A stretch of DNA of 64,000 bases from Gautieria morchelliformis (Eukaryota; Basidiomycota; Agaricomycetes; Gomphales; Gomphaceae): NCBI GenBank assembly GCA_015179125.1, contig WHVA01000273.1, forward strand, positions 1 through 64,000, given 5' to 3'. This document shows positions 35,389 to 57,155 of the stretch, piece by piece. The notes beneath the pieces were generated by a model. The model was not told where the DNA came from. It saw only the letters and a list, made by a program, of their open reading frames with translations, and did not search any database. The first letter of the stretch is position 1; every line of letters begins with the position of its first letter. The position numbers were made by a program, and so were the translations under genes.

Positions 35389-36083
35389 ATGGCTGAAGGT
35401 CTTGCAGGTGTGGGATTAGCAGGCAAGTCCTAGATACATATTTTCCTCTCTTGCCGGGCTCATCAGCCCACCCAGCGGGTGTCATCGGCATTCTTAATCT
35501 CAGTGAAAGGGTGATCCGCGCTTGCTACACGTACGGGACTGCATACAAGAATGCCCCCAAAGATATGAACAAGCTTGGCAGCCAGGTCTCAGGGCTCCGG
35601 TACTTCGTGCGCTTCACGAGCTCGTAATGGATGAGGAGACCAAGGCATCCTCTCGATTACCAACTTTGATTGAGGCGCTCAATACACCCTATGACCCTCA
35701 AATTGCTGATAGTTCTGCAGAACAGAACAGCACCGAGAAAGCGTCCGAACAGTACGAAGATGGGCGCACAGATTCCTTGTCAAGTGGCCCTACCGGTCGC
35801 GGAGCCATGATAAAACGTCTCTGGAGAACTTGGTTGAAACCCGAAGATACTCGCAGGGCTGCGTTGGAAACCAAGGGTAGACGCACAGATGACATGCTCC
35901 GTATCCTTGCAACAACTGAGAATACGTTAGAGACCGAAGTTGGAGGCGCCGATCGCATGCCCCGTGCCCTTGCGAATTACCATGCCGAACTCCAGAGTCT
36001 TTTGGACAAGCTAAAAGACAAGGACGGACGTTCATCTCGCAAGAAAGCGCTGGCCTGGACATTCAAGCAATATTGCGAGGTTA
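35389..36083 (+). pseudogene. NLR-like gene, N-terminal exons (part 1 of 3)
   Basis: The ATG at 35389 gives MAEGLAGVGLA. A 44-bp intron with a GC donor (35423-35466) follows, then PAGVIGILNLSERVIRACYTYG and YKNAPKDMNKLGSQV. This is the usual start of fungal NLR-like (STAND) proteins, a small helical domain. A 1-base shift near 35590 moves to the frame 35600-36103, with a helical, charged stretch ending KALAWTFKQYCEV. The frame is then cut by the TA-flanked element at 36084. Joining 36083 to 52275 continues the codons GTT AAG AAG ACT without a gap. Such proteins are intracellular receptors linked to non-self recognition in fungi; that role is inferred here. Confidence 0.8.
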
Positions 36084-36700
36084 CACCCGTTTGCAGTACC
36101 TAAGGCGCGCGTCGGATTTGCTTCCGTTTTAGCGCGCAAACTTCGAACAACGATATCTTGCTTGATATCGCTCCGATTCGCTTGAAATTTCATATCTGAA
36201 GCTATGTGGACCATAGCTAGGGCATAGAACTAAAAAATCCAAATAAAACAAGCATTTTTTATTTTGCATTTTGGGTGCTGAGGGCAAGCTTAGCTTACTG
36301 TATGTAGTTCAATGCAGGTTTTAATTTTGTTTGCTACTTGTACTAATGGTGAGAACCCACTACAGGAGAATCTCCAGAAGAGGGTGTCATAGGATTGGAG
36401 AGGAAGGGCTTAGCTTCTTCTGACATTGGATCAGTGAGATCTGACGGTAGGTGTTCATTCTTGATGTCGGATTTCCTCCTGTGTAGCATAAGCCCCGAAA
36501 TCTTTGATCCCTTCCGCACCGAGTGCCAATGCACCATAAGGCAACTTCGCCGATCCTGACACGTTCTTAAGCTCAGAAACCGCAGGGGCGCACACGTATG
36601 CGGTGGGGTGAGGGGCGCGGAGGTGCTGGGGTGGGCGAGCTGGTGTAGGAGGACGGGGTGGTGGGGGAGCGGGCGGCGGCAGGTGTGGGTGCTGGTGCGG
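36084..36700 (+). repeat. Left terminal inverted repeat of giant element
   Basis: Near-identical to the reverse complement of 51640-52272. The outer 200 bp are related to the MITE at 24610-24986. Differences include a 3-bp TTT absent from the right end and a short deletion near 36287 (GCTGAGGGCAAGC against GCTGAGGGGGGAAC...). The inner part merges into the GC-rich minisatellite. Confidence 0.88.
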
Positions 36701-36848
36701 GTGCAGGGACGGGTTGGGCGGCAACGCGAAGGACGCGGGGGCGGAGGTGGGCGAGCTGGTGTAGGAGGATGGGGTGGTGGGGAAGCGGGCGGCAGCGGGT
36801 GCGGGTGTGGGTGCAGGCACGGGTGCGGGTGCAGGTACGGGTGCAGAT

Positions 36849-36882
<34 letters not shown>

Positions 36883-37490
36883 GTGCGGGTGCAGGGACGG
36901 GTTGGGCGGCAACGCGAAGGACGTGGGGGCGGAGGTGGGCGAGCTGGTGTAGGAGGACGGGGTGGTGGGGAAGCGGGCGGCGGCGGGTGCGGGTGCAGGT
37001 ACGGGTGCAGGTGCAGGTACGGGTGCAGATGCAGGTGCAGGTGTGGGTGCGGGTGCAGGTGCAGGTGCAGGTGCAGGGACGGGTTGGGCGGCAACGCGAA
37101 GGACGCGGGGGTGGAGGTGGGCGAGCTGGTGTAGGAGGACGGGGTGGTGGGGAAGCGGGCGGCGGCGGGTGCGGGTGCAGGTACGGGTGCGGGTGCAGGT
37201 ACGGGTGCAGATGCAGGTGCAGGTGCGGGTGCGGGTGCAGGGACGGGTTGGGCGGCAACGCGAAGGACGTGGGGGCGGAGGAGGGGGTGGTGGGGAAGCG
37301 GGCGGGTGTGGGTGCAGGTATGGGCGCAGGTGCAGGGACGGGTTGGGTGACGACGCGAAGGACGCGGGGGGCGCACGCGTACACGGCGGGGTGAGGGGCG
37401 CGGAGGTGCTGGGGTGGGCGAGCTGGTGCAGGAGGACGGGGTGGTGGGGGAACGGGCAGCGGCGGGTGCGGGTGCAGGTACGCGTGCCCT
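36600..37490 (-). repeat. GC-rich minisatellite, compound (GGTGCR)n plus ~180-bp units
   Basis: Higher-order units of about 150-190 bp recur near 36710, 36897, 37080, 37245 and 37338, each with GGTTGGGCGGCAACGCGAAG. Between them are hexamer runs such as GGTGCGGGTGCA. On the minus strand one frame reads Pro-Ala dipeptides followed by a Ser/Thr/Pro block (AAARFPTTPSSYTSSPT), so this probably was an expanded exon like the one in the right arm (51585-51774). All three minus frames are open because the repeat unit is often a multiple of three, so the long frames there are not evidence of separate genes. Confidence 0.8.
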
Positions 37491-37843
37491 GGGACACGAA
37501 TGTGCCTGGGCCATGGCGCTCTGTGGGAGTCGAGTGGTCAGACACCCTGGTATGAGGAATACGGGCCAGGATACTCACGGAAGTTGGCCACTGGGGTTAT
37601 GGGGGAGTTGACAGGGAGCTGCTGGTACTTGATGGCGAGCCTGTGGAGCTAAGCGAAAAGGCGCGATTGAAGAACAGGGTCAGCGGATGCTTCGAAGCCC
37701 GGGGCAAGTTCATATGGAAGACGAGTGCCGAACCAAGAGAGGCTGAAGTGTCTGTGGTGCGTGGTGTTGTCGATGGTGCAGCGCGGCAAGCCGCCTATTA
37801 TGAATCGGCATAACCCGACCAAGTTCGACTTGCCTTACCAACA
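37491..37843. other. Spacer inside giant element
   Basis: No recognisable gene. It lies between the minisatellite and the start of the gene at 37844, and presumably includes that gene's promoter. Confidence 0.35.
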
Positions 37844-39530
37844 ATGGGAAATAACAAAAATAAAAGACAGCCCACCAAGTCAACACGAGCAACGAAAAAG
37901 GTCAAAGAACCTCCAGAGGAACTGTTACCTGACATAGCGGGAATTCAGGGCAAAGGTCGGTTTATATATAATGATGCTATTTCAAGCTCACCAGTTATTT
38001 AGAATCTGTTCAAACTACTAGCACTTTTCGACCGAAATGTCAGGCGGCAAAAAAAGTAACTTTTGAAGACTTAGAATCTGAGTCAGGGTCTTCATATGAG
38101 GAAGAGACCCAGCCAGCTCAAAGTGCATCCGAGTCCGAAGCCGAGCCCAACGACCCTAATTGAGACTCAGAGTCTGAAGAGTTAGTAGAGGTGGCAGTTC
38201 CCAAACAGGTAAAGGATATTGATGAACCTGGTATGCCATCATATTTTTCATTTATAATTTGATGCTCATTTCACGGCCTAGTAATTATCTTGCGTGTTCC
38301 GGACGGCACTGAAGCCGAAGGGTTTGTTGAGCGTGTGAAGCTTCCTGCCAACGTCAGTTACAAGAAGGTCGAGGAACATATCTTCAAAGCGATAGGGTGC
38401 TATCAAACAGTGAAAAAGATGCCGCACCTAGCTTACCGGCTCAAAGGTGTGCGAGATAAACACCTTTCGAAACTGGCAAAAGAAGAGGACTGGGACAACC
38501 TCAAGGATGATGTGAAGGGCGCTCAGGCAAGGAAGAAAAAGGGCGATGCCAGTGGCGTGGAAGTAGACATCATTCTGGATGAAAGTGTACGTGTGCGTGT
38601 GACTTCGCATGGCAGCCGCATCTGATATTATAAGAATTATAGTACATCGCATTGCTTCGGCATACACTTTCCAGGAAAAGGGACAAAACTGTGACAAATG
38701 CAGCTGGCAGGGGCAAAAAGAAGAAAGCTCGTATTCAGGACTTGAACACCGATTCTGACACTGAAGGATCTGAGATCGAAGAGCATGGCCTACCGACAAA
38801 ACGGGAAAGGGATTTCATGGAGGCGTTGAAGGCAGAGTATTCAAACTGTGGCAAACTGGCATGTGCTTCAAAAGTCTGCAAACTGAATAAGAATGGAGAG
38901 CACACGCATTTATCATGGTGCCAACTCCAGTCCTGGGTAACAGCCTTGGTGAGTACAACCTTTGCATTTATATGTATTACTCGCTGCTAATAATGCGAAT
39001 TTAGGTTTCTAACATTCATGGGGTCACTCTGAAAGTTCATTCCTCCAAACAACGCTCACTTCGAAGATTTCCATTATCGCAAAGACTCCATTCAAAAAGA
39101 GAAGACCGATGAAGGGTCAACGGCAAACCTGCCCGGCGCTGCATTGGGTCTTCAAGGATCATTTCCTATGATGATGTTCCCACCAATTGACTATTGAATG
39201 TTTGCTCAGAACATGGTCCTGAACCGCCCTGTTACTCCAGTCAATCCTGACAAGAGACCGGAACAGTTGACCCCTGCGACTCCCGGTGACATCGCTTACC
39301 CAAGCATCGAAGAGTTTCTTGACGATGTCCGTAATTGGCCTGAGGCTAGGGGGCAGAACATTGACGAATTCAAAGGTAAATTTGAAGCAAACAACGTTTA
39401 CTTCCTAAATGAACTGAAGGAGGTGACGGCTGATGTGCTCATGGCCAACATCGGGATGTCATGGGGTGACGCAAATTTCATCAAAGGAGCGGCTAGAAAG
39501 GCTATAAGGAAGCTTGCTAAGAAGGTGTGA
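37844..39530 (+). pseudogene. Multi-exon gene of unknown function with a C-terminal SAM-like helix bundle
   Basis: The ATG at 37844 gives a basic start (MGNNKNKRQPTKSTR). Introns fit at 37956-38002, about 38231-38282, about 38583-38682 and about 38948-39004. The second exon is acidic and Ser/Glu-rich, with one TGA near 38163. The next has VKLPANVSYKKVEEHIFKAI and a Lys-rich stretch. A Cys/His segment follows (CGKLACASKVCKLNKNGEH). The final piece (39198-39530) ends in a helical region VTADVLMANIGMSWGDANFI resembling SAM-type bundles. A frameshift near 39025 and a TGA at 39195 break it. Proteins of this build are common in mushroom genomes, but I know no function. Confidence 0.5.
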
Positions 39531-41377
39531 GAGGGAGGGAAGCAAGCAGAATTATGCCAGTAGGACACAATAATTAGATTTACTATATACATCAAAAAGA
39601 ACAATTTAGAGAATTATGGATATTTGAGATCGGCGGCCTTAGTACCGTCTGAGGCAGTGCATGGCACATTATTGGTATTTAACCTTGAGGCCGCTACCAC
39701 CAACACACCGCAAGAATGTAGATGGTTCACTTGTCACGTGACTTGTCCGCATGTTGACAACAGCTCTGCCTCTCAGACTCGCACAACATAGTTCTTTACT
39801 TGTTGTCTGCCTCTAATTCTCGATATTTGTTATTCCAGATGCCATCAACACCGCCCCAATCTCTCAAGCTTCCGTTGATGACGAGCACACCATATAGCGC
39901 CAGTTCCAGTAAATCTCATGAATCACACATTCGGACCCAGGATGATTTGAAAAAGCTGATGAAGGGCGAGTTCTCCAGTGCAATATTCGAGAGTAATTCT
40001 CTGCTTGAAGAGCGCTGTCGGGCGGATCAAAAAATTGTCGACACTGTCCTATCCAAACTGAAACCTGGCGTGTTCTGGGACAGCCCAACCGACACTTTCA
40101 AGGAATGGCCCAGCCGCACTGGTCCAGAAAGCGCTCATTATGCGCCGTTGGAGTGGTTACTCAACCAGATTCTGTCCATCTCCTCCCAAAAGCTGCCGAA
40201 TGGCAATATCCACCGAGGTCTTCAGTTTTACGTGTACAGTCGGGAAATGGCTGAAGGACTTGACACAGACTCCCCCCTAAAACCAGACCTTGTTGGTTGT
40301 CAGTCTGTTGGTAAGAGCCGAGGCTTGAAGCCAAAGCTCTCATGGAACGAGGCTGAAATTTGCGTAGAGGTGAAGAATAACTGGCCTGGTTTGATCCTGC
40401 AGTCAAGCACGTACGCGCACTGTATGTTCACACACCGATTGGATAGACTCTTCGTCACTGTTATCAATTTCAACAACGCAACGATGGGGGTGCGCTTCGG
40501 ATTTTATTCTCGCATGGGTCTGGTTGTTACGCCGGAACTTGACCTCTCGAAGGAGGGAGGCTTTAAAGGATTTGTCCGCGGAGTGGTTGGGATTAATTCA
40601 TGGACCAACACAAACCACGCTGGAATCGATACTACTCATACCATCACAGACATTGCAATTCCCGAGAGGGGTATATTCAATATTTCGAAAACACTTTGTG
40701 ACCGACGTTGCGTTCGCGGACAAGCAACGCGTGTGTATCTTTTGGTCAAGAAGGGTGCGTTTTGACGTTTAGAGATCTGGGCCAGTAGTTAACAATTGGG
40801 TTTGAAGGTGCAACCGCCACCGATGGTTCTCCCGCTCAACCTTCGTCCACTCACCGGTATAACTTACGAAGTCACCAACCCCCGCGTTCTCAGCCTGGAA
40901 AAGAGACTGACGGTCGAGAACCCTTGAGGTTGAAGGGAGGCATATCTTTTCTCTTGCCGGACACTGTCATTCTGAAAGATTCATGGCCATTGAAAACCCA
41001 TAACGAAGAAGGCACAATGTTTGGAGCGTTATCGGGCGGATTTGGACTGCCAGACATCCTTGTCTCATACCCTGTCGAGGACGGAATGGATAAGCTCATA
41101 CCTGATGACGCAACGTATTGGCCCGTGTGTGCGCCAGAGCCATACGCTGGGGTTAGGCCTGATGAACGAATACATATGCGATCTGTTTTTGAGACCCGAG
41201 GGACGTCACTGCGAGCTGCACAAAGTCCTCGATTGCTCGTGCGTTGCATAGTGCATGCCATGTTGGGTATGTGAACGAAGAGGGCATCGGACATGATTTA
41301 CCTATAATGGTGATTGACAGGGCATTTTGGGCTGTTTAAGAACGGCTGGTTGCACCGTGACGTAAGCATCGGGAACG

Positions 41378-41937
41378 TGTAAGGACCCGGCCTTTGGCCG
41401 GTTACTTACCGGTAGAACCTTCTTCCGAGCCCGAGCCTTGTGATATTCATGCCCGAGTACATATGATACTTATCCGCGCCCGAGCCCGAGCCCGAGCTTG
41501 AACTCATATCCGACCTTGATCCCATGCCCGTATCCCCTTAGTTACTGATTCCGCTCCATCACGCATCATTCGTATATTACCTCGCCCTGACCTCGGTCTC
41601 CTGACCTCGCCCTGACCTCCACTAATCTGTTCACCCCTGACTTGCACCTCGTCCGTATATAACCCCCTTGTATGCATTCCTACTCCTCAGTCTGAAAATC
41701 AACTATCGTATCCCTTCGATCCCTAGCTAGTTTCTAAGCCTCGCCTCTTAAGCCAAACTTCGCCTCTTATTCGTTTGCCTCCGAAGTTGGGACTCGTGCG
41801 TAGGGTCGGCGCAGCACATAAGCTGAAGCCAAGTCCCTCTCCGACTTCCCCATCCAAACCTCGCCCCGTAACCTCGGACCTTGCCTCAGGTTTCGTTCCC
41901 GACCTCGGCCAACCTTACGACGGATCGTATCGTAACA
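41378..41937 (+). repeat. 5' LTR (560 bp)
   Basis: It matches 48301-48846. A TATATAA box lies at 41656-41662. It contains a doubled GACCTCGCCCTGACCTC stretch that is single in the 3' LTR, explaining the 14-bp length difference. Confidence 0.93.
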
Positions 41938-41981
41938 GTATTTTCAGACTGCTTACACCCTACGTATCCCTTTTTTTCACG

Positions 41982-43212
41982 ATGTCCATGATAACTCGTT
42001 CTCGCACCCTTCGGGGTATCTCAGAACAATGACGTTTCTCGGAAGCCCCCGATGACTCACCCTCATCCCCGGGGATACCCCTCGCAGACCCCGCCGAGCC
42101 TAGTAACAAAGGCAAGGGTAGGGCTAACCCCGGTGACCCTTCAGGTGATCCAGGTGATGGCTCTGGAAGTTCTGACAATGATCGGGACCTCCCCAACCTG
42201 CCGCCCGAGGACCTCGGTGACCTTGAGGACAACGGGCTTATGCGTCGAATGTTCATCAAACTCGCGAAACCTTGCGAGCCCGAAGCATGAGCCAAGGTCA
42301 AGGAACCGGATAGTTATGACGGTACTGACCAGGACAAACTTCGCACCTTCTTCCTTCAATGCGTACTCAACTTCCGAGATCGCCCCACCGCTTTCAAGAC
42401 TGGGGCCTCAAAGGTGCAGTATGCTATTTCTTACCTGTCCGGCTCGGCTCTACAATATTTCAAGCTGGCGATCCTCGGCGAAGTCCAACCCGAGCCAGAT
42501 TGGCTCGAGGACTGGGACAGCTTCAAGGCCGAGCTCGAGCTCAACTTCAGCCCATACGACAACGCGGCCCAAGCCGAGATTGACCTCGAGAAGATCGTTA
42601 TGAAAGAGCACCACAAGGCCGCGTGATTCTTTATGACTTCGCCCGAGCTTCGACTCGGACTCAGTGGAACGATGCGGCCCTCCGACACTTTGCCTACAAG
42701 GGCTTGGCCAAACGAATCAAGGACGACTTACTTCACTTCCCTCGATTCCGCAGCCTCGCCGAGCTTAGGAACTTCGCGCTGGAATGCGACAGCCGTTACT
42801 GGGAGTGTAAGGAATACGACGCTATGATCAATGGTCGTAGCTCCCAGCCTGCACGCACCACTAATCAGTCCAGTAGCAATGCCACTAACAACAACCAGTC
42901 CTCCAGCGGTTCCAATAACAATAAGAACCGCAACAAGACTAACAACAGCGGCAAGGGTTCCAACAACAACAACTCTTCGAACAACAAGAGTCAGCCCGAC
43001 ATTTCGAGCAAACTCGGGAAGGATGGCAAACTACTTCCCGAGGAGCGCCAACGTCGGGTCGACCAAGGCCTTTGTTGCTTTGCGGCACCAAAGGTCACAT
43101 CGTCAAGGACTGCCCGAAGAACAAGTCTACCAACAGTAGCGGTTCTAAAGGTCAGGCAGCGAAGACCCCTAACGAGGGGACTTCGGCCTCCATTACGGAG
43201 GTGAAAAAATAG
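41982..43212 (+). pseudogene. gag: Gag of the chromovirus in the kinase gene
   Basis: ATG 41982 (MSMITRSRTLRG). The frame breaks at TGA 42030-42032 and again at 42288 and about 42624, but the pieces line up. An acidic Ser/Pro N-terminus is followed by a capsid-type region (LRTFFLQCVLNFRDRPTAF, ALQYFKLAILGEVQPEPDW, WNDAALRHFAYKGLAKRI), an Asn/Ser-rich linker, and a nucleocapsid CGTKGHIVKDC reached through a frameshift near 43080. It ends VKK-stop at 43210-43212 after a run of six A. Confidence 0.75.
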
Positions 43213-43309
43213 GTAGCAACCTCGGAACCACACAATCCGAGGATTGCGGTAACCTCACCCGTGTGCCAGACTCAGCGCCGCTTCTCATTCATTGTCCAAA
43301 GATTCCCTT

Positions 43310-46300
43310 AATGTAGATCTAACCTCGCCTTCGCTTCCCAACGTCGCTTTTGTTGCATTAGTTGACTGTGGGTCCTCAGATTGTTTTATTGAATCCAGAT
43401 TTGTCCAGAAGTACTCTATGCCTGCTTATCCTGTTTCCCTATACCCTTGAAACTATTTGACGGTAGTACTAACACTACCATTACCCAAGCTCTAGACCTC
43501 TGCATTTGCTTTCCGACCGGCGAACAACAATGGGTTACCTTCTACGTAACCTCGCTCGACTCGAGTTGCTCGGTGGTACTTGGCCACAACTGGCTCACCC
43601 GCTACAATCCGTCGATTGACTGGGTATTGGGCAGTATTACTTTCAAGACCATTGACCTAACAACGACTCCAGCGACCACAGCGACGTCAGCCCGCTCAGC
43701 TTCGGCTACGACTTCAACCTCGCCTACGGCATCTTCACCCCCACCTCCGACCTCGCCTCCGAAGTTGCAAGCACCCCTCGTTTCCCTAATCAATGCACCC
43801 GCTTTCATGCGTGCATCTAGATTGGAAGGGTCCGAAGTGTTTCAGCTCAATCTGGCTTCGCCAGAGGGGCAACATCGGGAGAAAGCTCTTCCGAGCTTTC
43901 TGAGAACGTTAAGAAACATGTTCCCGAAGTATATCATGAATTTGCGGATGTGTTCAGCAAAGCACGCGCTGACACTCTAGCTCCCCACTGACCACACGAT
44001 ATCAAAATCAACCTCGAAGAAGGGACCTCGCCACCTATCGGTCCCATCTACTCTCTCAGCTTCCGAACTCAAAGCACTTCGCGAGTTCATCGACGAGCAT
44101 TTGAACATATGTTTCATCTGACCTTCACGCTCGCCTCATGGTGCACCGGTATTGTTTGTTCGCAAAAAAGATGGCTCACTTCGGTTGTGTGTCGACTTCC
44201 GAGGTTTAAACAAAATCTCGGAAAAAGATCGGTATCCATTGCCATTGATTGCTGACTTACTTGATGCTCCAAAGAATGCTCGCATCTATACGAAGATTGA
44301 CCTTCATCACGCTTACCACCTCGTACGGGTGGCCAAGGGTGACAAATGGAAAACCGCCTTCAGGACTCGCTATGGGTCTTTCGAATGGTTGGTTATGCCA
44401 TTTGGTCTCACTAACGGCCCTGCTGCCTTCCAGAGATTCATGAATGAGGTTTTCGCCAACCTTTTGGATGTTTGTGTGGTGGTATACTTGGATGACATTC
44501 TAATCTACTCCAGTGACCCCTCCAAACATGTTGAATATGTCAAGGAAGTCTTGCAACGACTGCGACTCAACAACCTCTTCGCCAAAGAAGACAAATGCGA
44601 GTTTCATTGCGACTCGGTTGAATTCCTCGGCTACATACTCTCTCCCGAGGGCCTCACTATGGCGGATGACAAGGTAAAGGTCATTCAAGACTGGCCTGAA
44701 CCTCGCAAAGTTCGCGACATCCAATCCTTCCTCGGCTTCGCCAACTTCTACCGACGTTTCATTCACAACTACTCCGACATCACCATTCCTCTCACCCGAC
44801 TTACCCGCAAGGGTACCCCTTGGAATTTTCTGAGGATTGTCGACAGGCCTTCAACCTGTTGAAGAGGGTGTTCACTACCGCCCCTATCCTTACTCACTGG
44901 ATTCCTGACCTTCCACTAATCGTAGAGACTGATGCTTCAGATTATGCCTAGCGGCAATCTTATCACTGCGAACCTCGGAAGGCGAACTTCATCCCGTCGC
45001 TTTCCACTCCCGCACATTCACCTCTACCGAGCTCAACTACGATGTTCACGACAAGGAGCTCCTCGCCATTTTTGAAGCCTTTCAACGCTGGCGACACTAC
45101 CTAGAGGGCTCTGGCGACCCGGTCGACGTTATCACCGATCACAAGAACCTCGAATACTTTTCAACAATGAAGCTCTTGACCCGTCGACAAGCTCGGTGGT
45201 CAGAATACCTTTCCCAGTTCAACCTCGCCATTCACTTCCAACCTGGTCGCCTCGGAACGAAGCCTGACTCTCTCACTAGACGATGGGACGTCTACCTTAA
45301 AGAGGGGAATAGCGACTATGCCACCATAAACCCACAGAACCTACGGCCAGTGTTCACCCAACACCAGCTGGCATCGTCCCTTAGAGCTACTAACCTCGCT
45401 CCCGTCGTACTCCGAGCCGCTTCACTGCTTTATACCGAGCAGATCCGAGCTGACATACTAGCAAACCTCCCCTCGGACCCCATAGCCAAGTCGCACCTCG
45501 GCTTGGTTAATGACCCGAGGTGGACCACAGACCCCGAGGGCTTTCTCAAGCTTGACAACCGAACCTATGTTCCAGCGGCCCAAGACCTTCGACTTCGCAT
45601 CCTGCAATACAAGCACGATCACATTCTCACGGGACACTTCGGGGTCAACAAGACCTTGAAGCTGATCCGACGAGACTATACTTGGCCAGGGATTAGATCC
45701 TTTGTCAAGGAGTATTGCAAGACGTGTACCACTTGTATGCGAAGCAAGCCGCAACGTCACAAACCCTATGGTCTCCTCAAACAACTTCCTGTTCCCGAGA
45801 AGCCTTGGAATTCCATCTCTATGGATTTCATTGAGCAACTTCCCCCTTCATCCGAGTTCACCTCCATCCTAGTGATTGTTGACCGCTTCACTAAGCAGGT
45901 TATCTTCATTCCAACCACAGACAAGATAACCTCGCAAGAGATCTCTTCGTCCTTCATGTCTTTTCAAAGCATGGAGTCCCCTCGCACGTCACCTCGGACA
46001 GGGGTTCCGAGTTCGTCTCGCATTTCTGGTGTTCCCTAGGGAAAGCCTTGGACATGCGGTTGCATTTCACCTCGGGATATCATCCCGAGGGTGACGGTCA
46101 GACCGAGCGTGCTAACCAAACCTTGGAACAGTACCTCAGGATCTATTGCAACTATCAGCAGTCCAATTGGGCTTCGCTCCTTCCCCTAGCCGAGTTCGCC
46201 TACAACAACGCGCCTAGCGCAACCACCGGCATCTCCCCATTCTTTGCAAATAAAGGTTACCATCCGAACCTCGCAGTTCACCCCGAGCGTGACCTCACCT

Positions 46301-46895
46301 CGGCATGACCCCGAGACTTCGTGGTTGACCTGGACGAGCTTCACCAGGAACTTCGCCGCGCCATCCTCGAGGCTCAGAAAACCTACCAAGCCTCAGCCGA
46401 TGTTCGTCGCAAGCCCGCTCCTGATTTCCAAGTAGGATCCCTCGCCTTTGTAAAGGCACAGTACTTCCGAACAACTCGGCCTACCAAGAAGCTCGCCGAG
46501 AGGTTCTTGGGTCCTTTGAGATCATTTCCCGAGCAGGTACTCACTCCTTCACCCTTCGACTTCCAGAACACATGCATTCAGTCCATCCAGTATTCCACAT
46601 ATCTATGCTCGAACCAGCCTCGCCCAACACCATACCAAACCGAGTTCAGCCGCCTCCGCCCCCAGTCATTATCGACGGTGAACCCGAGTTCGAGGTTTCC
46701 GAAATCCTCGACTCGAAGATCGATAATAGACGCAAGAGCTGCAAATTACTCTATCTTGTTAGGTGGACTGGTTACGAAGGTACCGACGAAGAAACCTCGT
46801 GGATCCTCGCTTCCGAGCTTGATCATGCCTCGGAGCTGGTCACGGACTTCCACGACTCTTACCCGGGCAAGCCGGGTCCTTTGACTGCTCTATGA
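43310..46895 (+). pseudogene. pol: Pol of the chromovirus in the kinase gene
   Basis: Protease with FVALVDCGSSDCFI (about 43350); RT 44152-44862 with [13 protein letters not shown]; RNase H in pieces to about 45290; integrase zinc region with HDHILTGHFGVNKTLKL and CKTCTTCMRSK; core with SMDFIEQLPP and, after a frameshift near 45960, DGQTERANQTLEQY. After a further shift comes a C-terminal chromodomain (FEVSEILDSKIDNRR...LVRWTGYEG, 46680-46800). Stops or shifts occur near 43449, 43980, 44862, 44950, 45960, 46039, 46306 and 46560. RT and RNase H catalytic residues that I can see are kept. Confidence 0.85.
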
Positions 46896-46990
46896 TCATT
46901 TTCTTGTTAACCCCCATCACCCAGTAGTTAGATAACAAAATCCCTTCAAAAAAAAATCAATCAATAAAATCCAAGAAATATTCCATTATT
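46896..46990. other. Convergent 3' ends of pol and the antisense gene
   Basis: About 95 bp between the pol stop and the end of the minus-strand gene, A/T-rich (A-run near 46948). It may hold transcript ends of both genes. No separate feature is seen. Confidence 0.35.
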
Positions 46991-47002
46991 CCATTTACTA
47001 GT

Positions 47003-48128
47003 TTACTCCAACATCCTCATATCCTCTCCCTCGCTCTCCTCACTACCTTCGCCTGACTCCTCCTCATTACTACTACTACTTCGCTCCACCAGACCCCCAT
47101 GTCCCCCATGATCTGCCAAGTCCCTCGCTCCCTGCATCCGCTTCAAATAATTCCTCCTCCTCCTTATCCTCATGAACTCCATATCCGCCCTGTTCATCCT
47201 GTCATTCGCAGCCCTAAACTCCCCCAGCAACTCGCACACCCTCTCCCCAACCTCGCCGACTTTCTGTCCCACATCCCTCACAGCCGCTATCAACTCCCTC
47301 ATCTCCGCACTCCGCTCCGATCTTTTTGTCTTCTTGTCCTTCTTCGCCCTCCAACCTTCCACCTCGGATTCCTCCACCTCGGATTCCTTCCCCTCATTCT
47401 GCCTCGCCCCTTCTGTTCCCTTTCCCTTCCCCTCACTCAGCCTCGCTTCCATCCTCTCCACCCTCGTCTCGAGGTTACGCTTGACCCAATCACTCGAGTC
47501 GTTGTCACCATCATCCACCTCGTCTCGAACCTTGGCCCCTTTCCTCGGCCTCGGTTCACCCTCAGCCTCCTCGCTCCTCGCTCCCTTCTTGCTCGCTGTA
47601 CCCGCCTGACCTTTCCCTTGGGTCGCCTTGCTGTGGCGACCTTGGGCAATGCTATAGCCCAAGGAACAGGTCCTGCACCACACGCAGGCACCCTGGTCGG
47701 CGAGGCCGAAGTTGAGACTAACGGCCCGAAGGCATGTATAGTCGCGCTCTTCGCAGCGCGCGCACCTCGCCTCGGCCTTGGTCGCGAGCTGCCACTCGCG
47801 AGGTCCCCCGTCGGCGAGCTTGTACCCGTATAGGGACAAGTCGGTCGGGTGATAAGAAAACAGCATGCGTTTATACTAGACAAATCAGCAGTGCCTATGA
47901 TTAGACAACTACGGTACTCACCTTCTTTCTACTCGGTCCCTCCTGCCATGGCTGCCGCATGTCGATGGCACCCATGTCATCGATTGGCAGGACGCCAACC
48001 TCGGGTCCATCCTCGGGCATAACCTCGCCCGAGGCTCCGTTCTCCTCAGACAACAAAGTCTGGTCGAACGCGTTGTTCACGCTGTTCTCGTCGACGGCTG
48101 AATTGAAGAGGGGTTGCGGGCGCACCAT
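47003..48128 (-). CDS. Antisense two-exon gene in retrotransposon: cysteine cluster plus coiled coil
   Basis: ATG at 48128 (MVRPQPLFNSAVDENS). Exon 1 runs to 47922, an intron with GTGAGT...TGTCTAG spans 47921-47876, and exon 2 runs from 47875 to the stop at 47003. The splice is in frame and the whole frame of about 355 codons is open, unlike gag and pol of the same element. The protein has CARCEERDYTC and, 15 residues on, CVWCRTC: two C-x2-C modules with the first in C-x2-C-x6-C form, reminiscent of Zn2Cys6. A Lys/Glu-rich part and a coiled coil follow (AEMRELIAAVRDVGQKVGEV), then a Ser/Glu tail. It lies between pol and 3' LTR on the opposite strand. Function unknown; nucleic acid binding is a guess from the motif. 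Confidence 0.65.
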
Positions 48129-48300
48129 ATTCGTTGGCACTTGGGTTCGCTGCCTCCTACCCACCCTTTTATCTAACCTCGGCTACGATTTAAGCTTCGC
48201 CTTTCCGGCTACTTAACATCGGGCCGGGATCTAGATTCGAGGATAGGCGAACCTTGTTCACATTACGGCCTCGAGGGTCTCGGCCATAAGGGGGGAATAC

Positions 48301-48846
48301 TGTAAGGACCCGGCCTTTGGCCGGTTACTTACCGGTAGAACCTTCTTCCGAGCCCAAGCCTTGTGATATTCATGCCCGAGTACATATGATACTTATCCGC
48401 GCCCGAGCCCGAGCCCGAGCTTGAACTCATATCCGACCTTGATCCCATGCCCGTATCCCCTTAGTTACTGATTCCGCTCCATCATGCATCATTCATATAT
48501 TACCTCGCCCTGACCTCGCCCTGACCTCCACTAATCTGTTCACCCCTGACTTGCACCTCGTCCGTATATAACCCCCTTGTATGCATTCCTACTCCTCAGT
48601 CTGAAAATCAACTATCGTATCCCTTCGATCCCTAGCTAGTTTCTAAGCCTCGCCTCTTAAGCCAAACTTCGCCTCTTATTCGTTTGCCTCCGAAGTTGGG
48701 ACTCGTGCGTAGGGTCGGCGCAGCACATAAGCTGAAGCCAAGTCCCTCTCCAACTTCCCCATCCAAACCTCGCCCCGTAACCTCGGACCTTGCCTCCGGT
48801 TTCGTTCCTGACCTCGGCCAACCTTACGACGGATCGTATCGTAACA
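48301..48846 (+). repeat. 3' LTR (546 bp)
   Basis: The partner of 41378-41937, preceded by the polypurine tract AAGGGGGGAATAC. Immediately after it, past GAACA, the kinase codons resume. Confidence 0.93.
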
Positions 48847-49784
48847 GAACATCATGCTGATGGATGAAGCTGAGCGGCCACCTGTGGCAGAGTACATACC
48901 GTCTTTCACATCAGTCCTTTCGTTTTTTTATGTTTGCTTCAGTTTTGCCGTGACTCGAGAAGTTACTAGATGTGTGGGATTCATATGCGATGGGGACCAG
49001 GCGATTCGTTGGATGGATCAGAAGCGGGAATTAGCAAAGCATCGCTCAGTGGGTCTTTAGTTGTTGTGTGCGGCTTGTGATTTACATGGTTCTAGGGTAC
49101 GCTGCCTTTCATGTCTCAGGCACTGATTGTTGCTTGGGACTCTGGAACGCAAGTTGTGCACCAAGTAATTGATGACCTGGAGTCGTTTATATGGGTTTTA
49201 TTTCGGTCGATTCTGGAGATTCTGGAGACCAAGGGGGCACTCGTGCGACTAGAACAGAATTACCGTCAAACGATGCTCTCTGACGAGTTACCTGTGTTAC
49301 AAGCTAGGGGAAGTTTCCTTGATAGGTTAAAGCAACAGGATGCCGCGAAAAACTTCTCCACGGGCTTGAAGCCATTCTCCAAACTCTTGATTCAATGGTT
49401 AACGCTTTCTCGGGAGACTGCTCTGGAATGGCTGACACCAGACTTCATTAAGGTGAACGCCGATGAGTACACTTTACAGGCCACCAAGCCATACAGGCAG
49501 TATGTAACGATTGGGCTTGAATCTCTTTCAGACCTGCCAGAGAGTTGGGATTATGTTAATGAGGGGGAAATGACAGGTGAAGAGAGAGGATGAGCTGGGA
49601 AAGACCGCATGTAATGCATGACATATAATATTATGAGATCCTGTAGCCACTGTAGGAAGAGCGGGCACTTACAATGAGTACTTTTTGCACTACTAAGTGT
49701 TGTTTACCAATATCATCCATCACATTGCAGATAATTTTCAACATTCTGACAACAAAAAAATTACATTACAGTAGTACAACTGCA

Positions 49785-50990
49785 CTACATATAGCCACAG
49801 TCCTTCATCCACCCTCGCGCATGTCTGCGTGTAATCCGATCCAGTGCCTCGTAGAGAAACATGAATAGCTCAGCCCTCTCCTTACTTGCAACACATGCAC
49901 AGAACTCGGCACCATGACGTCTGAGGTGAGCTTTGATGAAGGAAAATGATTCTTCGATCGGGTTGAGATCGGGCGAGTACGGCGGAAGATACATCAGTTT
50001 GATTCCTCTGCAAATGCAAGATTAGACACTAGTGAAAACAGTTTATAATGGTAAAAACCTTTGGGCACATAAGAGTGAGACCTCAGGTATGTGGTGAATG
50101 GCGCAGTTATCCATAACAAGAACGCTCTGTGGTGCCGAGTAAGGGTTCATTACCTCTAAAAGGCCCTTCAGAAACCCAAGGAACTCTGGACCGTCGTATG
50201 CCCCTAATTTGATATGGCTATAGATGATTCCATCTTGTGAGAGCGCCAGAAGGATTGAAAATCTGAGTGGATATTAGCGATACAATAATGGAGGCCCATG
50301 CACAAATCGTTACCTTTCACCCCTTTGGAAACATGCTCGCACTCGAGGCCTACATCCCTTGTAAGCCCATCCCATTAGTCTATACGTTGTGCGAAGGTCA
50401 ATTGCGCTTTCATCTGTGAAAACCAAACGGTCCGGTGGTTCACTACCAATACGAAACTGGAAAGCAGTCCGCGAGGCTTCACAGCGCTCTGCGGCTGCCC
50501 GTGAAAGCTGGATTGGAGACAAATATAAAGGTTGTCATTCTTCGAGGATTTAATGACTCACTTTCTTTCTTTGCAAGCCAAGATGTCGAAGCGTCCTCCA
50601 GACAGTTGATATACTTACTAAAATACCATGCTGCACCTCTAGCTCTTCGACAAGCTCATCGAGGTAAAGATCGGGCGAGCGTTCAAGAAGCGCAAGAAGA
50701 AACTGTTATAAAATAAAATAAGCTACAGCTAAACACAGACATGAATTACTTACTTCACTCTGAGCTGAGGTCATTTTTGACCCATGAGATAGCCGCTTTG
50801 GCTCTGCCACAACGTCTCCAACATCCCGCCAGAGTTTGATTTTGCGTTGAACTACACGTAGTGACATATCGAGGTCAATTGCAATATCGGTTGATTTCTT
50901 GTTGAGCTTGAATTTTTGGTGTATAACGCGATCCCGCAGATCCTTGCTGTACATGTGACGAACAGGTTTAGGGTTGCCAGGGCGAGGCAT
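49785..50990 (-). CDS. DD34E Tc1/mariner-type transposase, five exons, open
   Basis: Exons 50990-50754, 50702-50562, 50507-50314, 50262-50059 and 50007-49785 have GT-AG introns of about 50 bp and join in frame to 332 codons with no stop. ATG 50990 starts [20 protein letters not shown]. Helix-turn-helix regions: [19 protein letters not shown] and [18 protein letters not shown]. Catalytic residues: first Asp in VFTDESAID, second in [11 protein letters not shown], Glu in [10 protein letters not shown], with 34 residues between the last two. Length and spacing are typical of Tc1-like transposases, which cut at TA and fit the TA duplication around the giant element. No nearer TIR pair is seen around the gene, so I assign it to that element. 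Confidence 0.88.
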
Positions 50991-51239
50991 ATGAGCGATA
51001 GTGTGGGTAGTACATACAAGGAGAACGGAAGTTCCCGAAACACACACCCTGACCAAGAATTCTATGACATGAATCGTGCGACAGCATTTGGACCCTTACT
51101 CCCAATGCTGAACCCCAACTCAAGTGTAATTTTCAGGTGTCGAATGGCCACTATCCCGTTTTTATTGGTGAGTTTGCTACTTATGCTTACTTTACATCCT
51201 CGCTGAAAGGGCTGTCACGTGTCCCAGCTACAAGTCCAC

Positions 51240-51774
51240 CATTGTGACTTGAAGCGCCCCTTCTACTCGTACAAGCACGAGCAGTTCCTTCCTGTCGTCC
51301 ACCCGCACCCCAACCGACCGCGGCTCCATCACTCCTACCGTCAACACCCTCACGATGACCACCACCACGTCCCGCGCCTCCACGCGCTACCGCAACACCA
51401 ACCGCGGCGACGCCCTCGCACGCCTCGAGGGCCGCCAGCCCAGTCGTGTCACGTCCGCGCTCCCGTCCCTCTACCGGCTGCCGTTTGGGCCGGTATCCCC
51501 CATGTCCCCTGTGTGGAGTCCCCTGGGTGTCAAGGTGTGTCGACGCCCCCGCACCCTGCTAACCATATGCCCAGTCTCCTCACGATGAGCTCCGTGTCGT
51601 CTGTGCTGCAATCGCACCCGCACCTGCACCCGTACCTGCACCCGTACCTGCACCCGCACCCGCACCCGCCGCCGCCCGCTCCCCCACCACCCCGTCCTCC
51701 TACACCAGCTCGCCCACCCCAGCACCTCCGCACCCCTCACCCCACCGCATACATGTGCGCCCCCGCGGTTTCCG
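51240..51774 (+). CDS. Pro/Ala-rich protein gene in the right arm of the giant element
   Basis: The frame is open from about 51250 (SAPSTRTSTSSSF); the first ATG is 51355 (MTTTTSRASTRYRNTNRGD, RLEGRQPSRVTSAL). An intron with donor GTGTGTCGA, a CTAAC branch site and acceptor CCCAG (51534-51574) joins exon 2 in frame: SPHDELRVVCAAIAPAPAP, Pro-Ala dipeptides, SPTTPSSYTSSPTPAPP, ending at TAA 51772-51774. Exon 2 is inside the inverted repeat; the left arm has the same exon with a greatly expanded repeat. No domain recognised. The start could lie upstream of 51355. Confidence 0.5.
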
Positions 51775-52272
51775 AGCTTAAGAACATGTCAGGATCGGCG
51801 AAGTTGCCTTATGGTGCATTGGCACTCGGTGCGGAAGGGATCAAAGATTTCGGGGCTTATGCTACACAGGAGGAAATCCAACATCGAGAATGAACACCTA
51901 CCATCAGATCTCACTGATCCAATGTCAGAAGAAGCTAAGCCCTTCCTCTCCAATCCTATGACACCCTCTTCTGGAGATTCTCCTGTAGTGGGTTCTCACC
52001 ATTAGTACAAAGTAGCAAACAAAATTAAAACCTGCATTGAACTACATACAGTAAGCTAAGCTTGACATTGTTCCCCCCTCAGCACCCAAAATGCAAAATA
52101 AAAAATGCTTGTTTTATTTGGATTTTTTAGTTCTATGCCCTAGCTATGGTCCACATAGCTTCAGATATGAAATTTCAAGCGAATCGGAGCGATATCAAGC
52201 AAGATATCGTTGTTCGAAGTTTGCGCGCTAAAACGGAAGCAAATCCGACGTGCACCTTAGGTACTGCGGGTG
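51590..52272 (-). repeat. Right terminal inverted repeat of giant element
   Basis: The inverse of 36084-36700. The innermost part is the short hexamer repeat (CACCCGCACCTG). The outermost sequence GTACTGCGGGTG is followed by TA and the NLR codons. A frame common to both arms reads KLPYGALALGAEGIKDFGAY (about 51803-51862), too short to interpret. Confidence 0.88.
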
Positions 52273-52274
52273 TA

Positions 52275-52672
52275 AGAAGACTCTTGACAACTTGCAAAGG
52301 TTCCATCAGCTCCTTACTTCTGCTTTACTTGTTGATCAAGTGTATGTTCCACCTGCCTGACGTCCGGTTACCAGTGATCTTACTATACTTGTGTTCGCAG
52401 AAATTTGGAGTTAGCAACACATGCCAACAATGAGAGGGACAGAATGGGTGTGTGAGATGTTACTGATAATGCAATACTTCCTAATTCTCCCTGACATTCG
52501 GTAGACAAACGTCGTCGGCAAATCTATAATTGGCTGTCAGGTCCTGATTACCAGTCGAAGCATTGGAATGCCTACAAGGAGCCAGAGGAAAGGACAGGAT
52601 CATGGTTTCTGCAAGGTGATCGCTTCCAGGAATGAAAAAGAAGGCCCGGGTTGTTCCTGTGGCTTCACGGCA
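52275..52672 (+). pseudogene. NLR-like gene, middle part (2 of 3)
   Basis: It continues from 36083: KKTLDNLQRFHQLLTSALL, intron about 52341-52400, ELATHANNERDRM, intron to about 52503, then RRQIYNWLSGPDYQSKHWN and RTGSWFLQGDRFQEWKK-like codons. A 1-base deletion near 52638 precedes PGLFLWLHGM, the segment that normally leads into the NACHT P-loop. The exon ends near 52672 at GTACGT. The Walker A motif itself is not found before or after the following insertion. Confidence 0.78.
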
Positions 52673-52834
52673 TGCGTACGTTCTCTATTACACTGTTTGT
52701 GTTACCAATAAATATGAGCTCGGAATATTCCGGCATTGCTAATAACGATTAAGTAACCGTGGGAATTTACTAACTCAAATCGTGTCCTGTTGCGTCCACA
52801 CCACTGTCGCGCTCTCAAAGCTCTAGCAATTTCC

Positions 52835-53905
52835 ATGGACCCCATCCCTCCTGCTACTTTCTATGGTAACCTAATGTCAACCCCGGGCTCAGATGCCATG
52901 ATTGACCCCGTGCTCCTTGGCAACACAACCAACGTGTCGCGTCCACCCAATACTGCCGTGTCTGCTCCACCAGTCGCTCCCCCTTTGAGATCTACCGTGG
53001 AATCCATGGACTCCACGGCACGGAAGGGTCGCGAGGAATTCTCTCTGAAAGACCTTGAGCAGCTCCTGCGTGCGGTCATCGACATCAACCCCTACATGGC
53101 GCCGCGCAACAAGATCGGTGAGCGGTGGAAGCATGTGGCCAGGTTGGTCCAGGATCAGGGGTATTGTTTGAACAGAGATGTGGATACTCTGAAGAACAAG
53201 GTAGGATCAATGCTGGCATGGGTGGAAGTAAGTCCAAACAATTACTTTCTCTGAATGTGCAAGAACTGACCTATATGCGCCCTGGGAAGGGGGGGGAAAA
53301 GACTTCAGTTCGCTCTCCACTGGGAAGGGAGCTGGGACGTGACCCGTTGGCGTTTGCCTCGCTCTCCGGCAAACTGGACGTGATCCAACACCTGAAACAG
53401 ATGGCGAAGGACACCCGTGAGGAGGAGAGGGAGCAAGCTAAAGAGGTAAGTCCGGTGGTATGTATATATTATAGTACTCACATGCATGCAGGGCGAGAAG
53501 GCATCCCGGGCAGCGGGGGAGTCCCTGCGGCTCGGGATGATGACCGGTCGCCGAGGCCGCACTAAACGAGCACACAGGCCTGCATCTTCTGATTCGGACA
53601 GCGGGAAGGAGAATCATCCTAGGCTTTCCCCCGGCACACCAGAATCTGGGTCTGTTGGATCTAAACGGACGCGTCTGACAAGCTTGAGCCGTGCTAATAC
53701 GTCCGAGGAGATTGCGAAGATGGTGCGAATGATGGAGAGGAACGAGGAGCGAGAGGTGAAGAAGGAAGAGTATATGATGGAGTTCCGGACGAGCCTCTTG
53801 GCTCGTCAGGACCGGGTGCTTGAAATGCACGACCGCGTCATCCAAATGCAGGAGCGCACGTCCAACGCGCTCCTGGACATATTGCGGCAGGGATTGCTTA
53901 ATTAG
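52835..53905 (+). CDS. Myb/SANT-like protein of PIF/Harbinger transposon
   Basis: ATG 52835 (MDPIPPATFYGNL). Exon 1 includes a helical domain with EEFSLKDLEQLLRAVI, NKIGERWKHVARLVQDQGYC and DTLKNKVGSMLAWVE, the spacing of a Myb/SANT-like domain. Two introns (about 53227-53260 and 53446-53490) lead to a C-terminal exon with an NLS-like KRTRLTS and a long charged helix (MERNEEREVKKEEYM...MQERTSNALLDIL) ending at 53905. In this superfamily the Myb-like protein helps the transposase reach DNA. The first splice phase is uncertain, so the middle of the model is approximate. Confidence 0.65.
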
Positions 53906-54024
53906 TGTCTTAATAGGCATAGTTTTCATTTTCATAGTTCAAATGGCACCTATCTTGATTTTACAAGTGAAAATTATGGAAAGCACATGGTAATCAGCCA
54001 AAAAAAAAAAATTGCATATATTTT

Positions 54025-55266
54025 TTACACATGAAAATAGTTTTCCAACGTCGGAGGCGGGCACGAGTAACGCTGCGCTGTCTGGTTGGGAGACACACAT
54101 GCATGCGCATTAGTGAGTAGCACGGCCACCCTGTATAGCAGGCCGCACGGGTTCCCAAGGATCTTCTGCTTCCAGAAACACTGGAGATAGGGCCAGTCCT
54201 GCACAACCAATCCGAACCCGTGTTCCACTAAGATGCGAACCCTTCCCATGGCTGTGTTCCAGGCCCGTTCTTCGCCGGTGAGTTCTCCCACTCGAGAAAA
54301 AGGACTTACAACGAAGGGGCTAACTGCATAAGCCGAATCCCATAGACCTGATAAAACCGGCTCTCTGGGGGATCCCCTTCCTGTGAGTCCTCCTGAATCG
54401 CATACCTCTCCATCGAATCCAGTAGCCCACTCTCACGCAGGATGCCACTGTCATTCTGCGGTGCACGATACGGGCCAGCCAGGTGAGCGATTAGACCATT
54501 CGGGGTGACCACGGCCTGAAATTTCATCCCATGCATTTTTTTGTAGCCCATGTAAACCAACTCCTGGTGCTCCACAGGCCTGCACGTTCGCCATATGGTG
54601 CAGTCAATAAAACCGCAGACCGTACGTGTTGGAGCCCCAAAACGGCGTAGCGCGGCTGCATACACTTTCAGATTGTCTGGGCTGACAATCCCCTTGTGAT
54701 CCCATTGAAGCAGGTGACCCCATCTTGAGTTGATGAAGGATGCAGTCTCATTCACTATCTGTGAGATCGCAGCCGGGGGGGCGTGCATACTTGGTGGCCA
54801 GCGACCACAGATCCTCTGGGCTGCGAAGCCGCGCACACAGGAGGGACAGCGATTCGAGGGGGGTGGAATTGAATCTGCTCTTGGTTATGAGGGGATCCAC
54901 CAGTTCAAGGAGCTGGCTAAGGATCCTCAACTCATCCAGGGTAAACCTTCAGTGCAAGGCAAATTCAGCGATAATTCCAAGACAAACGTGTGAGGGTGCT
55001 TACCGGAACCTCCAAATACATTCTGCCTCACTGATGCTCTGGAGGTATACCTCTGTGATGCGATGGCCTCCGATCTCGGGACGTGGCCTCTGCATTGGCT
55101 TGCAAAGAGCCCCTGTGACCGTTTGGACAAAGGTGGATGTGTGGCTTTCGAGATCTTCAAGATCGCTGAGATCATTGGTGAGATTGGGAAGCAATGGTTG
55201 AGATGCCAGAAGGAATGGGATTAGAGTTGTTGAGACCAGACGTTTCTTCGAGCGGCTGACTGGCAT
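54025..55266 (-). pseudogene. PIF/Harbinger DDE transposase, two frameshifts
   Basis: ATG 55266 (MPVSRSKKRLVSTTLIPF). Exon 1 ends near 55007 (EAECIWRFR) at GTAAGC. Exon 2 (from about 54947, FTLDELRILSQLLELVD) has a 1-base loss in a G7/C7 run near 54775. The core then reads TVCGFIDCTIWRTCRP (first Asp), YMGYKKMHGMKFQAVVTPNG and ILRESGLL. Another shift near 54340 leads to a frame with the second Asp in GDSAYAVSPFV, then GELTGEERAWNTAMGRVRI and LVEHGFGL (Glu), ending at 54025. It fits the DDE_Tnp_4 type. Catalytic residues remain, but the frame is broken. Confidence 0.8.
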
Positions 55267-55545
55267 GGTGGTAGGGAAGACGAGACACCACGCGTCAGTC
55301 ACGTGTTCACGTGTTCACCCTAATTACACTAATTACACTAGTATATATCAACTTTTCTGGCGCTCACATTACAGGCCCTAATAATTTCTTATCATATTTG
55401 ATAATTATTAGCAAGCATAAACAGTGTATTGCGCGCCTCGGTTGATGCTCGCCACTGAAAGAACCGCACAGCTGGCGCGGGGAAAACTATCTTATTGTAA
55501 ACACATCCAAACATCACTCTAGATTTCCAATCATGCTAACATAAG

Positions 55546-57155
55546 TATGCGTCAAGTTCCGCCATCATTGAAGACATATCCCGCTACTGCAAGTCAAGCC
55601 CTTCGCTGGCCATCTCGTACTTCTATTCGACTTTCATAGCAAAGATATACGAACATATTCCGTCCTCCGTGCGCTGATCAAACGGCTGTCCTTGCAATGC
55701 GCTAGTACCCCCGACACCCTGGCGAAACTCTTCTCTGATAACAAGGATGGTGAACGATCTCCGTCTCCGGAGGAACTGAAGTCGACTGTTAAGTCCATAA
55801 TTGGCAGCTTCGATGGAGTGTATATCATTTTCGATGCCCTTGACGAATGCCCAGACCGACATGACTTTTTGGAACTGCTTGAAGAGTTTCACTGTTGGGA
55901 TTCTGATAAAATATACCTCCTGGCCACGAGTCGAACAGAGCAAGATATCCAAGAAACGATGGGGCGCTTGGCGCATACGACGTCCCCATGGACGAAAATT
56001 TGGTCGCTGACGACATTTGTGTTTATGTGTCCAAAAGAATTAATGGCGGCAGCAGGTTCAAGATGTACTCGACGCATGAGAAGCGATTGTTTGGCTACTG
56101 GTGGAGAAGGAAGCGCTATTAACGCACAAGGAGGTGAGTATGGCACTGCGCTGCAGGCGGCATTGTTGCACGGTGCCCATGCGGTCGTTTAGCTGTTGGT
56201 AGAGAAGGGCGCGGACGTCCATGGGCAAAGAGGACAGATAAGTGTGCTGCGGGCAGCGTCATATCGTGACGATGCTCTGCTTCGCCTGGTACTGGATAAA
56301 GGAGCAGACGTCAATGCACAAGGAGGAGAAGCCAATTGGAGTGGAGGCGAGGGCGAGTATGGTGATGCACTGCAGGCAGCGTCTGCCCAAGGTCACGTTG
56401 CTGTCGTTCGATTCCTAGTGGAAAGGGGAGCGGATGTCAACGCACAAGGATGAAAATACGACAATGCGCTGCTGGCGGCGTCAGCGAAAAGCCACAATAC
56501 AGTTGTTCGGCTGCTTTTGCAGCATGGAGCAGACATCAACTATGCACAAGGACAGCACGGCATTGCGCTGCAGGCAGCGTCGTTTAATGGCAGGACAACG
56601 GTTGTTGAGCTGCTCCTGGAGAAGGGAGCGGACGTCCATACCCCAGGAAGAGGATATGGCACTGCACTGTTAGCGGCTTCGTCTGGTGGTAACGTTGACG
56701 TCGTTCGGTTAATATTGGAACATGGCGCGAATATCAACCCAAAGGGTGGAGAAGATGGTAGTGCTCTGCCGGTGGCGGCGTCATTTGATTTCCCCGAGAT
56801 TGTTCGGCTGCTGGTGGAGAAGGGAGTGGACGTCAATGCAGAAGGGAGGTTCTCTGTCCGTGCACTGCAAGGGGCGTCGGGTCGTGGTAACATGGAAATC
56901 GTCCAGCTGCTACTAGACAAGGGAGCGGATATCAGTGCAAAAGGATATTATGGCGGTGCGCTTCATGAGGCGTCATCAAAAGGGTACGCTGCTGTTGTTC
57001 GCCTACTGTACGGCTACTGTTGGAACACGGGGCGGATATTATTGCACAGGGAGGTAAGTACGGCAGTGCGGTACAGGCCAGCATCGTCGAACGACCGATA
57101 TACAATTGCTCTGGTCCTATTGGAGAAGGGGGAGGACGCTATCGAGTCGTCGTAG
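55546..57155 (+). pseudogene. NLR-like gene, NACHT and ankyrin part (3 of 3)
   Basis: It resumes with SSAIIEDISRYCKSSPSLAI and, after a 1-base shift near 55630, SKDIRTYSVLRALIKRLSL. Walker B is in YIIFDALDECPDRHDF (about 55825-55870), then KIYLLATSRTEQDIQETM. From about 56090 ankyrin repeats of about 33 residues follow (ALQAASAQGHVAVVRFLVE, GADVNAQG; at least eight units) to the stop at 57153-57155. In-frame stops lie at 56190-56192 and 56451-56453. The winged-helix and helical region normally between NACHT and ankyrins is missing: the text jumps from VADDICVYVSKRINGG to the repeats. Confidence 0.82.

Follow-up and report, generated by a model that had tools for sequence, protein, structure and literature searches.

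The transposon copy and its insertion site

The window analysed here, a 64,000-nucleotide stretch of Gautieria morchelliformis DNA (contig WHVA01000273.1, positions 1 to 64,000 of the forward strand), contains an NLR (STAND-type) gene that is broken by a transposon copy at 36084-52272. The copy, to which no strand is assigned, lies in a TTAA target between TA duplications at 36082-36083 and 52273-52274, and its junctions read TTA/CACCCG at 36084 and CGGGTG/TAA at 52272. Between its terminal inverted repeats (TIRs) a transposase gene at one end faces two genes on the other strand, one called the partner gene and the other coding for a full-length FunK1 kinase. We consider it very probable that 36084-52272 is a cut-and-paste transposon of the IS630-Tc1-mariner superfamily that carries cargo and was originally autonomous.

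The left TIR (36084-37487, plus strand) comprises about 0.5 kb of unique sequence and, after it, a GC-rich minisatellite with GGTGCAGGTGCG-type units, and the minisatellite-bearing inverted matches on this side extend to about 37487. The right TIR (51606-52272, minus strand) and the left arm share 95.8% identity across 622 aligned bases. Overall the TIRs measure about 0.6-1.4 kb and carry the tip sequence CACCCGTTTGCAGTACCTAAGG; four bases near the right tip, TTTG, are missing from the window copy and present in other copies. The initial annotation had correctly recognized inverted ends CACCCG...CGGGTG with TA on both sides, while the TIRs proved far longer than it had noted. It had also listed a Pro/Ala gene apart from a minisatellite, and these turned out to be one repeat DNA inside the TIRs, with Pro/Ala frames in the left arm and no gene.

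The 5' part of the interrupted NLR exon spans 35507-36083 and its 3' part 52273-52340, both on the plus strand, with NACHT-type (PF24883) and ankyrin frames following at 55572-57152. Joining the flanks gives GAG GTT AAG AAG ACT, and the exact restoration of codons proposed earlier is upheld by the paralogue L065, whose sequence GAG GTC AGA AAG ACT runs through the junction without a gap, the alignment having a 3-base in-frame gap 7 bases upstream of it. Six other loci align over the restored junction at 70-73% (C337 twice, C656, C774, C392, and C893); the NLR paralogues also match at the protein level, with a stop in C392. Farther downstream, about 3 kb of unrelated frames (52600-55500) separate the NLR 5' exons from the PF24883 domain, so the NLR gene may be broken again.

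The element family in the genome

Terminus searches covered the 122-Mb assembly (1113 contigs, window included), with the reversed terminus as control. The 25-base terminus was found at 265 places (133 + 132) at no more than 3 mismatches, and its reversed control at none. About 45 of the 265 termini are of the type of a sister family described below; 70 places lie within 1 mismatch of the sister terminus, 25 with the CCTAAGG of the window family and 45 without it. The genome searches scored only the best candidates, which makes the copy counts minimum values.

Exact matches to the 22-base tip number 134, and TTA precedes 129 of them. TTA also adjoins 42 of the 44 distinct ends in the fetched loci, and the tip is altered at the two ends that lack it (L014 and L015); because 30 of the fetched loci were retrieved by a pattern that included TTA, 129/134 is the fair count. 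The right side is TAA in the copies where that side is in hand, and the target is therefore TTAA with a TA duplication. We rejected the option that TTA is part of the TIR without any duplication, as the uninterrupted NLR paralogue keeps the four junction bases and the reading frame, which a TTAA target with TA duplication fits better. piggyBac was likewise rejected, as these junctions are not a 4-bp TTAA duplication and the transposase is of the DDE_3 type.

Twelve further stretches (L009-L020) were compared with the window. The gene block recurs in the window's order in nine of them, some with insertions or deletions; it is partial in L014, and in L013 and L020 only TIRs and fragments are present in the part fetched. 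Pairwise divergence among 11 core sequences, window included, is 1.5-3.2%, and as the fetched loci were the best TIR matches, old copies are under-represented. The same ends, transposase and kinase, together with the partner gene, are thus found at other TTAA sites of the assembly, as expected of the cargo-carrying mushroom mariner that had been proposed and in keeping with the uninterrupted NLR paralogues. Instead of being confined to this locus without TIRs, the cargo belongs to the family. An alternative reading, in which a host gene cluster was segmentally duplicated and the inverted repeats are incidental, could draw on places with identical scores (e.g., C833 and C968), a few of which may be duplicate contigs, since the assembly may contain such contigs. 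The bases beyond TTA are random among the 44 distinct ends, however, and the NLR interruption is clean, so that we give this explanation next to no weight.

Four other copies with both ends measure 8141, 8282, 8822, and 9402 bp. The window copy is much longer (16.2 kb) because a Ty3/gypsy long terminal repeat (LTR) retrotransposon with a chromodomain (41378-48847, plus strand) was inserted into exon 3 of its kinase gene, and about 8.7 kb remain once this element is subtracted. Its LTRs (41378-41938 and 48301-48847) are 96.6% identical over 561 aligned bases. In other transposon copies position 41378 (or 41376) joins directly to 48847, and the LTR element interior has no match in the 12 other stretches compared. 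A later LTR element of about 7.5 kb in an original of about 8.7 kb, as first annotated, is in full agreement with these data. The window also contains, at 4232-7111 and 15884-19849, two Ty3/gypsy polyproteins with chromodomains, both long and open (960 and 1322 codons).

The transposase gene

The transposase gene (49785-50990, minus strand) has five exons (50990-50754, 50702-50562, 50507-50314, 50262-50059, and 50007-49785). It does encode the 332-codon DD34E protein initially described as open, although the frame is continuous only after removal of four introns. The spliced protein matches DDE_3 (PF13358; E 9.1e-28), and D242 and E277 are separated by 34 residues. The frame is open in six of 11 copies, one of which, L014, has K in place of the catalytic E. 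An open stretch of 94 codons between the transposase and the right TIR (51253-51534, plus strand) is common to the family, with 136 genome matches at E<=0.01, some of them weak.

DDE_3 Tc1-like homologues were found in other mushrooms, at 55% identity in Panaeolus and 58% in Sphaerobolus and with up to 332 residues; they are of the same type as the window's transposase, a likeness that covers the proteins and not their genomic context. A tree built from 25 transposases joins the window family to the sister family that carries a cytochrome P450 sequence (support 80/99) and places two sibling transposases, L062 and L064, with proteins from Sphaerobolus (99/99).

The position of the transposase at one end of the unit could also mean that it belongs to a short nested mariner and that the large, non-autonomous composite was moved otherwise, as proposed for ToxTA; the published account indeed places a nested Tc1 element within ToxTA (PMC12506042). 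Yet no inner TIR pair surrounds the transposase among the longest 25 of 49 inverted repeats, so that a closer TIR pair, which would have spoken for such nesting, was not found. The transposase position is moreover constant in the copies that retain this region, and the sister family has a related transposase within a matching pair of termini. We therefore hold a composite origin to be very improbable and retain the autonomous unit as our reading.

The FunK1 kinase and the partner gene

The kinase gene (39839-49592, plus strand) has five exons: 39839-40754, 40808-41266, 41321-48891 (interrupted by the LTR element), 48970-49048, and 49096-49592. The earlier assignment as a FunK1-like kinase is well founded, since the spliced protein matches PF17667 with E 3.3e-37 and 128.6 bits (cut-off 24.1) and contains the catalytic motifs common to other FunK1 proteins; among the 11 copies, 10 retain VILKD and HRD and 9 retain DGD. 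The column-majority frame is open over 682 codons. None of the 11 copies is free of lesions, the window copy being broken by the LTR element.

The genome contains at least 130 matches to kinase exon 1, none of those listed falling below 57% identity (129 of 181 candidates scored). Among the matches listed, 42 places cover at least 285 of the 305 residues, and 21 of these 42 lack a stop when read by hand. Because all the listed exon 1 matches are at least 57% identical, no separate host parent gene stands out, and the idea that the kinase had recently been captured from a host gene was rejected for want of a closer parent among them. A protein search, which finds only relatives that share short words, listed 12 proteins, none of them named from G. 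morchelliformis. A second multi-copy FunK1 kinase was noticed at L061:3985-5594, with near-equal scores at C305, C332, C981, C482, C207, and C257; the 10 kb read there contain no inverted-repeat pair and no transposase or partner-gene match, and this kinase is perhaps the cargo of another carrier.

The partner gene (37844-39530, plus strand) has five exons and 490 codons in its column-majority frame, which is open. The window copy has two stops and a 4-base insertion, and none of the 11 copies is lesion-free, although a 2-base deletion and a 2-base insertion in L009 may compensate each other. Its database homologues, again in a search that finds only relatives sharing short words, are six G. 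morchelliformis proteins at 54-64% identity, and a viral contig scan for relatives returned none. What had been called a SAM-like gene has no Pfam SAM match even at E<=10 and no sequence match to a SAM chain in the PDB, so that a SAM fold is not supported by sequence; the gene itself is the family's 490-codon partner.

Sibling families

Two sibling transposases, L062 (C132) and L064 (C551), are 42-51% identical to the window's by tblastn and 57-58% over the aligned parts in a separate comparison. Both stretches contain, on the strand opposite the transposase, a divergent partner gene with weak tblastn matches (25-29% identity to the window's), and no kinase match was found in either. In L062 an inverted-repeat pair of about 0.87 kb (84%) surrounds transposase and partner gene, while the transposase as read has lost the first catalytic D; L064 has no inverted-repeat pair within the stretch read. 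The N-terminal part of the L062 partner also resembles many short genome frames at 25-31% identity (143-residue frames; e.g., C870, C403, C308:114260, C195, and C658).

The sister family has the terminus TTACACCTGTTTGCAGTACGTAAGG, paired about 4.72 kb apart at four places (C347:45154-49878, C365:98152-102867, C770:19103-23818, and C1083:11216-15932). Its transposase, read at L063 (C347:46600-51100), is open over 332 codons, with a dN/dS (nonsynonymous to synonymous substitution ratio) of 0.096 and a dS of 0.92 against the window family. Three stretches of the C347 unit match cytochrome P450 with E 3.1e-7, 3.1e-6, and 0.003, the last below the cut-off. Equal length and matching transposase scores suggest that the C365, C770, and C1083 units contain P450 sequence as well. 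C365 and C770 share neither flank, and the right flank of C347 is unlike that of either; these three are therefore separate insertions. L063 was also considered as a short, truncated or transposase-only element, and this was rejected because the terminus search puts the P450 sequence inside the same unit of 4.72 kb. Another sibling terminus family forms units of about 10.2 kb (C1:146500-156710, C271:398431-408644, and C425:103528-113742), with further units of 7.5 kb (C164:10486-18028) and 14.3 kb (C1004:215624-229922).

No kinase was detected in siblings that have the partner gene, which makes the latter the probable older companion, joined by the kinase in the amplifying lineage. Kinase and P450 look like lineage-specific acquisitions. 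With a P450 sequence in the unit of the sister lineage, the interior of the element may serve as a slot for exchangeable cargo. We tentatively extend this, at somewhat less than even odds, to a mariner platform that serves as an interchangeable gene carrier in a small Starship-like role, in which one transposase lineage with a long-standing partner takes up different host-type genes (FunK1, P450) and can multiply them to some hundred copies.

Selection, decay and mode of movement

The cut-and-paste reaction of mariners is established for the superfamily. Here the transposase would bind the TIRs, excise the unit and reinsert it, and the partner and kinase genes would be carried along because they lie between the TIRs.

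Several observations weigh against an autonomous, cargo-bearing element of this kind. No transposition movement has been observed, and all three genes are intact in no copy examined. In a test based on 11 copies, dN/dS is 1.05 for the transposase, 1.42 for the kinase, and 0.97 for the partner at singleton changes, and 0.88, 0.69, and 0.77, respectively, at shared changes, none of them significant. A hand count gives 6 lesions in 11.0 kb of transposase versus 51 in 38.7 kb of kinase plus partner (p 0.02); the lower density in the transposase implies that the cargo may be dispensable. The P450 sequence, moreover, was read in the C347 copy only, and there over its C-terminal half and with the right flank. 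The column-majority frames of transposase, kinase, and partner are nevertheless all open. From the pattern of lesions and dN/dS we conclude that both cargo frames were still unbroken at the start of the burst, which does not amount to proof that they were needed. The suggestion that the element was spreading signalling genes thus stands for the intact kinase frame at amplification, and is weakened by the lack of any lesion-free kinase copy and of detectable selection.

Of the 288 changes counted in noncoding columns, 178 are CpG transitions, and an excess of such transitions is the usual mark of cytosine methylation. The copies have been decaying since the burst, and the dominance of CpG-to-TpG change suggests methylation-based silencing.

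The kinase, with or without the partner, might also aid the element itself, much as a kinase might in ciliate TBE elements, for instance if it modified the transposase or host factors for repair or silencing. The open 682- and 490-codon frames, the catalytic motifs retained in most copies and the recurrence of the partner gene with three related transposases in the genome, beside its six Gautieria homologues, are in line with such a role, as is the zinc-finger/kinase open reading frame (ORF) that adjoins the transposase in Oxytricha TBE (PMC4724952). The sibling units, however, have no kinase match and the sister has P450 sequence in the unit, the shared kinase changes lack a significant purifying signal, the singleton dN/dS of the kinase is 1.42, and kinase and partner have more lesions than the transposase. 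A helper function of the cargo is accordingly rated as unlikely, if far from negligible, and carriage as cargo is preferred.

Other features of the window

Rfam (30000-56000) and ARAGORN (whole window) returned no matches. A frame at 61298-61807 matches HTH_32 (E 4e-4, below the cut-off) and is possibly another Tc1-like or IS630-like transposase.

Comparison with known systems

A DDE_3/Tc1-type transposase with DD34E, a TA target duplication, and TIRs place the family in the IS630-Tc1-mariner superfamily. Tc1/mariner elements are commonly regarded as minimal, being usually 1-3 kb long with a transposase only, which is typical and not defining; the four complete copies of 8141-9402 bp exceed this range. 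A Starship was rejected, as no DUF3435 tyrosine-recombinase captain occurs among the scanned element ORFs and spliced proteins and the ends are TIRs, not direct repeats.

A high-copy, originally autonomous family with two extra genes and a P450 sister suggests that mariners can move and multiply fungal signalling and metabolic genes, and together these units offer a natural series for asking when a transposon benefits from its cargo genes, is burdened by them or is unaffected. FunK1 kinase functions are given as open in PMC3203195, and mariner cargo would be one route to lineage-specific expansions of these kinases. The open-licence literature searched yielded no description of a mariner with a FunK1 kinase or P450. 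Cargo-bearing Tc1/mariner elements are nonetheless already published in fungi (PMC3538342, PMC12506042), and because of these precedents the novelty that the initial annotation drew from elements with usually only a transposase is weaker than claimed.

The Pyrenophora tritici-repentis Tc1/Mariner element is described with an extra ORF (osmosensory-transporter coiled-coil domain) in 46 copies (PMC3538342). The window family, which has a basidiomycete host, differs from it in carrying a full FunK1 kinase together with a second gene, in having a minisatellite in its TIRs of 0.6-1.4 kb (the published TIR length not being part of this comparison), and in the differing content of its sibling families. 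ToxTA (formerly ToxhAT) is a fungal unit of about 14 kb with TA duplication, TIRs and a host-type gene (PMC12506042), and thus resembles our element as a large TIR-bounded unit; it is described there as non-autonomous with 74-bp TIRs, whereas the window family encodes its own transposase. Oxytricha TBE is a Tc1/mariner element with three ORFs, one of which has a kinase domain (PMC4724952). TBE is a ciliate element and FunK1 is fungal, so the likeness lies in the presence of a kinase and does not extend to a comparison of the kinases themselves.

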